The translations under genes were made by a program, and so were the position numbers. Below, in pieces: positions 3,453-41,581 of a stretch of 49,667 nt of DNA. The stretch's first letter is position 1; every line of letters begins with the position of its first letter. A model generated the notes under the pieces. That model was not told the origin of the DNA and did no database searches. It saw only the letters and a program-made list of their open reading frames with translations. This DNA comes from Leptotrichia sp. oral taxon 879 str. F0557 (GTDB taxonomy: Bacteria > Fusobacteriota > Fusobacteriia > Fusobacteriales > Leptotrichiaceae): the NCBI RefSeq assembly GCF_000469385.1, contig NZ_KI271329.1:1-49667 (forward strand), in the 5' to 3' direction.

Positions 3453-3684
3453 CCCCTAAGGGTAGAGGCAGAGGTGAAATTCGAGATTCTTTGACTATCT
3501 AGTTAATCTGTAAACAATGTACAAAAGAACTAGAAGTCTAATAAGTTCATCGCTATTTACTGCTCTAAACCTCCTTATAATAGAATATGAGTTTACTGAA
3601 CTCTTTGTTATTATAACAAAAAAAGCTAGAAAATTCTAGCTTAATTTGTCAGTAATTTTATTCTATTATAAGTTCCCCTTAGGG
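3453..3684. repeat. Inverted-repeat bounded structured element (MITE-like or structured RNA)
   Basis: This non-coding segment is bounded by near-palindromic ends CCCCTAAGGG (3453-3462) and CCCCTTAGGG (3675-3684). Inside are nested stems. A 13-bp perfect pair joins 3574-3586 with 3660-3672. A 9-bp hairpin lies at 3623-3631/3634-3642. An 11-bp stem with one bulge joins 3493-3504 with 3528-3538. Short stems lie at 3589-3593/3599-3603, and GAGGT/ACCTC pair at 3471-3475/3569-3573. No open frame of note. The amount of pairing is far above what neighbouring AT-rich spacers show. It could be a miniature inverted-repeat element or a folded RNA between two plus-strand genes. Confidence 0.6.
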
Positions 3685-3751
3685 TTTTTAACAACTTAAT
3701 TATATCATATTTTAAAAAAAAGTCAATTAGTCAAAAAAACATTTTTTTATA

Positions 3752-3821: not shown

Positions 3822-5472
3822 ATGAAAAAGTTGAAATTAATAATGATTTTATCGCTTTTAATGGTAGCAGGAATTACAGCTTTTGCAGAAAAAGCGACTA
3901 ATAAAAAAGTTGAAAAAAAATCGGTTGTATTTATTGGAGCAACAAAGGAAAAATGTATGAGTTTAAAAAACAGTAAAATTTATCAGACTGAGATTACAAG
4001 TACAGAGTGGAAAGAGGAAGGGCCTTTGGAAGAAGATGCTAATGCTAGATTTAGTGGTTCCAGTACAGCTAAGGCTTCGGCTCCCGCACATTGTGTAGTT
4101 AGAGGGGAAATTGAAAAGAGAAAAGGGGCAGATGGGAAAGATTACTCGATTGGTTTTGAATTAAGACTGCCTTCGAAATGGAATAATAAATTTCTGTTTC
4201 AAGGCGGAGGCGGATTGAATGGAACTGTTTCACCAGCAGTTGGAAAAGCTCGTCCATCAGGGTCAACAGCAACACCTGCTCTAACTCGTGGATATGTAGT
4301 TGTAAGTACTGATAGCGGACATTCAGGCTCAAGAGATACAAGCTTTGCAAAAGATCAGCAGGCAGTTTTAAATTATGCATTTCAATCTACTGGGAAAGTT
4401 ACAAATGTTGCAAAGCAATTAATAGAAATAATGTATAGTAGTCAACCAAAACATAGTTATTTTATGGGATGTTCAAATGGTGGTCGTGAAGCAATGCAGG
4501 CTGCAATGTACTATCCAAATGAATTTGATGGTATTATAGCTGGGAACCCTGGATTTCAGATTATCAAAAGCAGCGATTGGTGAAGTATGGGATAATAATC
4601 AATTTTTAAAATATGCACCTATTGATACAAATGGTAATAAAATAGTTGCAGAGGCTTTGACAGAGGAAGATTTGAAGGCTGTTGCAGAAGGTGTAGTTGA
4701 AAGATGTGATGCTAAAGATGGATTGAAGGATGGAATTATAAACAGCTGGGAAAAATGTGACTTTAAACCTGAAATGGTTGAGAAAAAAATTGGTAAGAAA
4801 AAAGTTGATTTGCTGAATGCAATATTTAAAGGTGCAAAAAACAGTAAAGGAGAAAATGTCTATGCTTCCTGGCCTTATGATGCGGGAATAAGTACAAGAG
4901 GTTGGCGTATGTGGAAACATGGTACTTCAAAAACAGGAACACCAAATTCAATGAATTTCATGATGGGTGTGTCAAGTTTGAGTGATTACTATATGAAACC
5001 TGCAAAACCTGGAATGAAATCAACAGACTTTGATTTTGACAAAGATGTTGCCAAGACAAATGAAATTGGTGGATTAAATGATGCTGATAAAACGGATTTG
5101 TCAACATTTAAAGCTCGTGGTGGGAAAATGATTATTTATGAAGGTGTATCAGACCCAGTATTTTCAGCCCATGACATTAGAGATTGGTACAAAAAATTAG
5201 TGGGAAATATGGGAAATGTTGATAATTTTGCAAGATTATTCATGGTTCCTGGAATGAATCACTGTGGTGGAGGTCCTGCAATGGAAAACTTTGACGCGTT
5301 AACAGCCCTTGAAAAATGGACAGAAAATGGTGTTGCTCCAGATTACATCGTCGGAAAAGCTGGGAAAGAATATCCAGATCCAAATAAAGAACAGCCACTT
5401 TGTCCATATCCAAAGGTAGCAACTTATGTTGGTGGGGACAAGAATAAGGCAAGTAGTTTTAAATGTGAATAA
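3822..5472 (+). pseudogene. Secreted tannase/feruloyl esterase family protein, disrupted by a single-base frameshift
   Basis: Together the two frames encode about 550 residues, a normal length for the tannase/feruloyl esterase family (alpha/beta hydrolases acting on aromatic acid esters). Residues 1-22 form a signal peptide ending ITAFA, so the product would be exported. The catalytic CS-D-HC signature is present: GCSNGG near residue 218 (nucleophile Ser with adjacent Cys), Asp in GVSDPVFSAHD, and GMNHCGGG. The first frame ends at 4583. The second frame continues cleanly from TTC at 4555 (FRLSKAAIGEVWD). One surplus T in the TTT run at 4554-4556 therefore explains the break. Both halves stay well conserved, so this is a very recent mutation, a phase-variable slip or a sequencing error. 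The Ser is in the first half and Asp/His in the second, so neither fragment alone should be active. Confidence 0.85.
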
Positions 5473-40609: not shown

Positions 40610-40672
40610 TATAGGAGCCTCCATGAATTTTATATAGGTTATAATAACCTCCGTTTAAAAATTTACGAAAAA

Positions 40673-40694
40673 ATAAGGGGATAATTCCCCTTAT
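40673..40694 (-). terminator. Terminator after tsf
   Basis: ATAAGGGG (40673-40680) pairs perfectly with CCCCTTAT (40687-40694), loop of six, followed by ATTTTTTCG on the minus strand. It lies directly behind the tsf stop, so pyrH-frr may need read-through or its own promoter. Confidence 0.75.
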
Positions 40695-40696
40695 AA

Positions 40697-41581
40697 TTAA
40701 TTTCCAGAAATTTGTGCAGCTACTTCAGCAGCGAAATCTACTTCTTCTTTTTCGATTCCTTCTCCAACTTTAAATCTGTCAAATGAATTTATTGTACTTG
40801 GGGCAATAAATTGTTCGATAGTAACACTGTCATCTCTAACATATTTTTGTTGTACTAAGCAGTTTTCTTCGTAGAATTTTCTCATTTTTCCATCCAATAT
40901 TTTTTCAATGATATTAGCTGGTTTTCCTTCTGATTCTAACTGATGTCTTGCAATTTCTTTTTCTCTTTCCAAATCATCAGCTGTAACTTGTGATTTATCT
41001 AAATATTTTGGATCCATTGCTGCAATGTGCATTGCAACACCTTTTGCTTTTTCAATATTTTCAGGAGTAGCTTCTCCATTAACATTTAATAATACACCAA
41101 TTTTTCCACCTAAGTGAATATAAGTTTCGATAAATCCGTCAGTTGAAACAACTTTTAATCTTCTAATATTCATATTTTCACCAATTTTAGCGATTAATTC
41201 TGTCAAATGAGTTTCAACAGTTTTTCCTTCAAGTTCAAATGCTTTTAATTCATCTTCGCTTGTCAAGTCATGGCTTAAAGTCAATCCTACCAATTTTTCT
41301 CCAAAAGATTTAAATTCATCATTTTTAGCAACGAAGTCAGTTTCAGAGTTGAATTCCAAGATAGCACCTTTTTTTCTATCTTCAGAAATCGCTGCAAATA
41401 CCAATCCTTCTGCTGCAACTCTTCCAGATTTTTTAGCTGCCTTAGCAATCCCTTTTTCTCTTAACCAGTCAATTGCTTTTTCAATATCTCCGTCATTTTC
41501 TTGTAAAGCTTTTTTACAGTCAAGCATTCCTGCTCCTGTTCTTTCTCTTAATTCTTTAATAAGTGCTGTTGTAATTGCCAC
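40697..41581 (-). CDS. tsf: Elongation factor Ts
   Basis: A 294-residue nucleotide-exchange factor for EF-Tu. The N-terminal UBA-like domain shows [23 protein letters not shown]; the core has [19 protein letters not shown] (EF-Tu contact) and [13 protein letters not shown]. Length is typical. It begins 68 bases after the inserted TPR gene, with GGAGGGAAATAAAGTG as ribosome site, and is followed by a terminator. Confidence 0.96.

Follow-up and report, generated by a model that had tools for sequence, protein, structure and literature searches.

In most type I toxin-antitoxin systems the antitoxin is antisense-encoded; an antisense or divergent layout is usual, not strictly defining. Ibs/Sib, Fst/RNAII and Ldr/Rdl have short hydrophobic peptides and antisense-encoded or convergent antitoxins. 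TisB/IstR-1, ShoB/OhsC, Zor/Orz and DinQ/AgrB of E. coli combine a hydrophobic peptide toxin with a non-overlapping sRNA that pairs with the toxin 5'UTR (PMC4147584). In the same source, Ldr loci are described as tandem repeats, and type III systems (ToxIN), reported from Fusobacteria among others, have the order antitoxin RNA, terminator, toxin. The full-length aapA mRNA of Helicobacter pylori is silent, its Shine-Dalgarno sequence (SD) being hidden by 5'-3' long-distance pairing (PMC6733600). A 2025 paper (PMC12390103) presents a cyanobacterial case and states that type I systems had until then been reported solely in Proteobacteria, Firmicutes and Tenericutes.

The locus described here occupies positions 3453-3684 of the window, the whole stretch of 49,667 nt analysed from Leptotrichia sp. 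oral taxon 879 str. F0557 (contig NZ_KI271329.1). On its minus strand it is read, with a probability of about 0.83, as a type I-like toxin-antitoxin module in same-strand tandem order, of which toxicity and transcripts are predicted only. The family is best read as a type I-like toxin-antitoxin of Leptotrichiaceae, in which an antitoxin RNA would silence the mRNA of a membrane peptide encoded just downstream.

Like TisB/IstR-1, ShoB/OhsC, Zor/Orz and DinQ/AgrB, the module has a small hydrophobic peptide and a putative separate sRNA antitoxin complementary to the toxin 5'UTR; unlike in those systems, where the antitoxin is divergent, it lies upstream on the same strand with a terminator between, and pairing is bipartite (hairpin loop and SD-proximal) in nearly every copy. 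Short hydrophobic peptides and repeated loci are shared with Ibs/Sib, Fst/RNAII and Ldr/Rdl, from which it differs in the same-strand antitoxin and in peptides without a Pfam match to those families. As in AapA/IsoA and Hok/Sok, the full-length toxin mRNA is predicted to be silent with the SD hidden, a likeness of predicted fold; AapA/IsoA differs in that IsoA is an antisense RNA, and activation by 3' trimming is here presumed. The gene order, antitoxin RNA, terminator, toxin, is that of type III ToxIN, but in ToxIN an RNase protein is bound by an antitoxin built from short tandem repeats, whereas here the toxin is a peptide of about 20 residues and the RNA matches an mRNA. Families of short direct repeats in the region: none, which argues against type III. 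The RNA antitoxin is complementary to the toxin mRNA, as in type I; the antisense or divergent layout is absent, all copies read having the antitoxin upstream on the same strand. The module is undescribed in the literature searched (including PMC12390103, PMC4147584, PMC11264685, PMC5608710, PMC6563280 and PMC6733600, as far as these sources were available), though the type I toxin-antitoxin database or a 2010 survey that introduced new type I families may already list it. Relative to the literature searched, the tandem layout appears new, as do the two-part recognition and the occurrence in this phylum.

Anatomy and folding of the window copy

Structured on both strands. The 232 nt fold with z -8.2 on the plus strand and z -8.9 on the minus strand, none of 200 dinucleotide shuffles reaching the real value in either case, so that folding exceeds expectation as the preliminary description had held. 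The structures which it reported were found overall: inverted ends (CCCCTAAGGG at 3453-3462, CCCCTTAGGG at 3675-3684), a long-range pair, and nested stems, including a hairpin at 3616-3649 and a 15-nt, 80% complementary stem at 3498-3534. The long-range pair is perfect, as claimed, and 14 bp long (3574-3587 with 3659-3672) instead of 13 bp. The neighbours are also as named there, the upstream ORF passing the Pfam Esterase cut-off and the downstream gene being a tannase.

The coherent set of predicted signals is that of the minus strand: P1, antitoxin RNA, terminator, P2, 5'UTR hairpin, SD, hydrophobic ORF and anti-SD tail (Table 1). Promoter scan yields P1 and four weaker promoter-like matches (5 found, 2.6 expected). 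Terminator-like hairpins are present on the minus strand at 3642-3623 and 3468-3453 (shuffle mean 0.0). The transcription signals of this strand reach about 3726, beyond the limits first drawn. A small ORF is present inside the segment, which is therefore not purely non-coding, as it had been called.

Table 1. Predicted features of the module at the window locus, listed in minus-strand order
Feature	Position	Strand	Remarks
P1, putative strong extended sigma-70 promoter of the antitoxin RNA	3699-3726	-	-35 TTGACT at 3721-3726; 16-nt spacer; TG-extended -10 TATAAT at 3699-3704; 11/12 matches
Predicted antitoxin RNA, ~75 nt	3618-3692	-	presumed start ~7 nt past the -10; presumed end at the terminator
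Antitoxin 5' segment CCCTAAGGGG, complementary to toxin mRNA 3' CCCTTAGGGG	3675-3684	-	one of the inverted ends
V1, antitoxin recognition segment 1	3659-3672	-	pairs perfectly over 14 bp with the toxin mRNA, from shortly before the SD into it
V2, antitoxin recognition segment 2	3649-3655	-	matches V2', the loop sequence of the toxin 5'UTR hairpin, by complementarity
Antitoxin intrinsic terminator	3618-3642	-	8-bp stem, then T-run; stem covaries (alignment, 29 copies)
P2, extended -10 TGTTATAAT, presumed toxin mRNA promoter	3610-3618	-	directly after the first T-run; no good -35
Toxin 5'UTR hairpin	3589-3603	-	loop V2' (3593-3599) complementary to V2
V1', toxin mRNA segment complementary to V1	3574-3587	-	runs into the SD
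Shine-Dalgarno AAGGAGG	3570-3576	-	sequence motif
Remnant toxin ORF, hydrophobic	3495-3560	-	21 codons and stop; first codon GTA, in other copies GTG or ATG
Anti-SD segment CACCTCTGCCTC, 3' part of toxin mRNA, CACCTC-rich tail	3465-3476	-	pairing of SD with 3' end, probability 0.79 here
3' end hairpin with CCCTTAGGGG, candidate toxin mRNA terminator	3453-3468	-	other inverted end

The preliminary description had also allowed for an undescribed structured RNA. Copies elsewhere agree with this, and so does the lack of Rfam matches (none in the window, and none at E<=1 that concerns the element in four loci searched). A single structured non-coding RNA of ~230 nt with its own function would fit the strong fold of the whole minus strand; it is nevertheless very improbable, since an internal terminator and a second -10 divide the segment, the ORF is coding and under selection, and two RNAs pairing with each other would produce just such a long-range helix. 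The structure is mostly complementarity of antitoxin RNA and toxin mRNA.

The window copy is probably a decayed module, with the antitoxin half kept and the toxin dead. The toxin frame, which begins with GTA, is open to the usual stop; the toxin is taken as probably dead because a recognised start codon is missing. The antitoxin half alone looks functional from its predicted signals. The tannase gene also looks broken in the window genome, since it is split into two ORFs (3822-4583 and 4657-5472, plus strand), one matching the first part of Pfam Tannase and the other the last part.

Copies, peptides and cognate pairing

Multicopy, with strict-pattern matches confined to the family. By DNA search, 20 of 40 genomes (the window's own included) have matches, at 1-10 places each, among them every genome of the same genus except G012; some matches in other families span just ~40 nt around the terminator. 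Units form tandem arrays in G009 and G011. A covariance model of the core has matches at E<=0.01 throughout the genus (13 of 13 genomes; those in G012 and G005 are weak, 0.001-0.002) and matches in 5 of 11 other genomes of the family. With these matches and with strong covariation, the locus is not the single, non-covarying occurrence that the preliminary description had named as counting against it. The strict pattern (T-run, extended -10, SD) is found in 11 of 98 genomes of the phylum, all of the same family, its reversed control giving zero; a related strict pattern applied to 84,980 species genomes picks out 4 stretches, each from Leptotrichiaceae, with L. hongkongensis JMUB5056 among them. 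Such strict patterns would miss diverged members, and their matches bound only where the module is detectable.

Two model matches were rejected. That at 40616-40724 of the window (E 0.008) covers the start of a long ORF and holds no module. That on contig 64 of G000 (L046, 189-307) has the terminator and then the extended -10 without the rest of the module; the pair therefore exists also outside the module, and may be a common composite in the genus. In L046 the terminator is followed directly by TGTTATAAT, ahead of a lipoprotein-like gene, with no module.

Copies were chosen by presence of the SD and an ORF of 12-40 aa with >=50% hydrophobic residues; complementarity was not used. Two of 40 rows (L024 +1966, L030 +1290) were dropped for a missing terminator hairpin, and five copies were added by hand to the 38 remaining, giving 43 for the duplex test. 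P1 scores >=10/12 in 40 of 43 copies, against 12% of letter shuffles, and has TG in 38 of 43. In P2 TATAA is invariant and the adjoining letters are >=90% conserved (29 copies). In the alignment of these 29 copies the terminator and UTR stems covary, with 97.8% of cells paired. The antitoxin is on the same strand as the toxin and upstream of it in all copies read, and signals for a separate antitoxin RNA (promoter and terminator) are predicted in nearly all. The CCCTAAGGG 5'/3' pair does not covary; deviating copies change without compensation.

These data bear on the reading as a miniature inverted-repeat element, a MITE with CCCCTAAGGG/CCCCTTAGGG ends, which the preliminary description had offered. 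Inverted ends, multiple copies and the tandem arrays of two genomes would suit it, but the window locus has counterparts within similar flanks in related genomes, homology continues past the ends, the ends themselves vary between copies without compensation, and the conserved unit takes in, besides a promoter lying beyond the "ends", an ORF that is coding and under purifying selection. It is the least probable of the readings considered.

The ORF of the module begins 11-15 nt past the start of the SD motif in most copies and is mostly 16-21 residues long. Eight peptides examined have 18-21 aa and GRAVY of 0.6 to 2.4, as expected of type I toxins, which are small and usually hydrophobic. Three recurrent peptide groups resemble MSNDDIIRLLIILYIIYRITR, MVDFIAIFILFVIIYYSLNR and MRTFLFVLVVFLLIQGILY respectively. 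Two groups give pN/pS of 0.29 (12 sequences) and 0.30 (8 sequences), which indicates purifying selection, and these peptide groups are therefore regarded as coding. The peptides match no Pfam or NCBIfam family; at this length most would escape profiles of that kind. PF06716 was rejected as the peptide family, its sole line being at E 0.3, below its cut-off.

For the duplex test, 55 nt upstream of the T-run were paired with the UTR up to the SD in the 43 copies (duplex energies in kcal/mol). Mean cognate duplex -23.3, non-cognate -10.8. In a dissimilar subset of 26 copies (UTRs <75% alike) the means are -23.8 and -10.3, and 0 of 20,000 permutations reach the observed mean; with the variable part of the antitoxin scrambled, the mean is -10.3. 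In 24 of the 26 dissimilar copies, and in 30 of all 43, no antitoxin fits better than the own. V1 and V2 diverge between copies yet stay complementary to their targets, and the form of pairing is nearly constant (V1 ~11-16 bp into the SD, V2 6-8 bp with the hairpin loop). Single duplex energies prove little in isolation, because unrelated matches on viral contigs reach -5 to -35; permutation among copies is the real control.

The own antitoxin is outranked in 10 of the 38 copies chosen by the rules above, in six by the antitoxin of a similar copy (five by <=1 kcal/mol, one by 2.3) and in four through weak own pairing (-7.4 to -13.0). Two of these four, in G002, lie 1.8 kb apart and have exchanged halves, the crossed duplexes giving -25.7 and -29.4; they flank ORFs which are presumably transposase-like (L034 1083-3496; ORFs 1492-2848). 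For toxin 1570 of G009 the partner is a solitary antitoxin lying 168 nt upstream (-21.8), and for the weakly pairing toxin of G021 it is an antitoxin 442 nt upstream (-23.6). Action in trans is implied, since all four failing copies are matched by other antitoxins of the same genome; rescue of mismatched copies from within the genome would be expected if the antitoxins act in trans under selection.

A cis-acting leader, in which the P1 transcript would run through an attenuator into a leader peptide and P2 would be no promoter, has in its favour the terminator between P1 and the ORF and the co-directional parts. It is nonetheless quite unlikely. V1' and V2' both lie past the terminator, which leaves their pairing unable to serve as an antiterminator; the extended -10 past the T-run is near-invariant; and a cis mechanism hardly accounts for the reciprocal swaps or the solitary antitoxins.

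Solitary antitoxins, decay and mobile copies

Matching silencers, solitary antitoxins, toxin decay and prophage carriage are usual for toxin-antitoxin loci. At a second locus in the window's own genome (G000), 16918-17026 of contig 63 (L002/L045), upstream of what is taken to be a typA-like gene, promoter, antitoxin and terminator are kept and the toxin is lost. Eight solitary antitoxins were tested. For two of them, from G000 contig 63 and from G008, a fit of about -28 is found with toxins of G001 and G010; a third is the G009 rescue case above, and the other five give -16 to -21 at best, values of uncertain meaning.

The window locus is intact in four of 11 genus genomes (G006, G007, G002, G003) and damaged on the toxin or promoter side in seven. 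In G000 the toxin lacks a recognised start codon, in G010 it has lost its stop, and in G009 it stops early. G005 and G011 share a deleted P2 and a broken frame. In G008 the promoters and the antitoxin have been deleted and the SD is changed, while G004 has kept little of the locus. None of the 11 combines P2, SD and an intact toxin at this locus with absence of the antitoxin.

One module copy (L130) is on a viral contig of 48.5 kb, ~2.5 kb from the terminase gene, with portal and head genes following, and a copy in G003 is among phage repressor, replication and antirepressor genes; other copies are chromosomal, such as one upstream of a typA-like gene and those of the G009 array. In the pattern scan of viral contigs, L130 alone of 39 stretches has the module, the rest being judged other promoters by their ORF and hairpin. 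Many viral contigs of ~100-120 kb (among L101-L139) have a terminator, TGTTATAAT and an SD before a long protein starting with MVAYSS or MVAFSS. The tandem array of G009 is flanked by two ORFs which look autotransporter-like, one short and one very large (L031, 6194-6715 and 9743-18889). Blastn of this array against plasmids and phages gave no match. The two ORFs flanking it share the same N-terminal sequence.

The same RNA-mRNA pair could serve a harmless or regulatory membrane peptide under sRNA control, and conservation of the ORF would fit a beneficial peptide too. This is unlikely, though the least so of the alternatives: the many copies each retain a matching silencer, solitary antitoxins persist without toxins in several genomes, the toxin side decays frequently, and copies are borne by prophages. 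The toxin-antitoxin reading is preferred.

Proposed mechanism and significance

Toxicity of the peptide and its suppression by the RNA are proposed from sequence. P1 would drive a short antitoxin RNA ending at the intrinsic terminator, with presumed transcript ends, and P2, at the end of the T-run, would drive the toxin mRNA for a hydrophobic peptide of 18-22 residues if active as predicted. V2 would pair with the loop of the 5'UTR hairpin (6-8 bp), probably as initial contact; V1 would then pair into the SD (11-16 bp) and presumably block ribosome entry, and the antitoxin/toxin mRNA duplex would probably be exposed to RNase. When toxin mRNAs are folded from the presumed P2 start, pairing of the SD with the 3' tail is predicted in 11 of 11 (probability 0.67-0.93). 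Most of the structures displayed leave the hairpin loop exposed and the stretch before the SD single-stranded; the antitoxin targets are accordingly regarded as free. The full-length toxin mRNA would be silent through pairing of its 3' end with the SD, and 3' trimming is for this reason probably required for activation of the toxin. Read-through from P1 would give a transcript of ~230 nt with antitoxin and toxin paired in cis, which would account for the full-length fold first seen.

With somewhat more confidence than doubt, the copies together are taken as a family of RNA-regulated peptide toxins of Fusobacteriota, with same-strand tandem layout and a two-segment code. Its paralogous pairs would coexist separated only by diverged base-pairing, its specificity halves would be exchanged by recombination, and solitary antitoxins matching the toxins of relatives would be kept; it would form a natural, partly prophage-carried repertoire of orthogonal sRNA-mRNA pairs. 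If true, Fusobacteriota would be added to the phyla with type I systems, and type I regulation would not need antisense or divergent encoding. The dissimilar, mutually discriminating pairs and the reciprocal swaps make the evolution of sRNA-mRNA specificity directly testable, and the family would, if so confirmed, offer compact orthogonal RNA switches.
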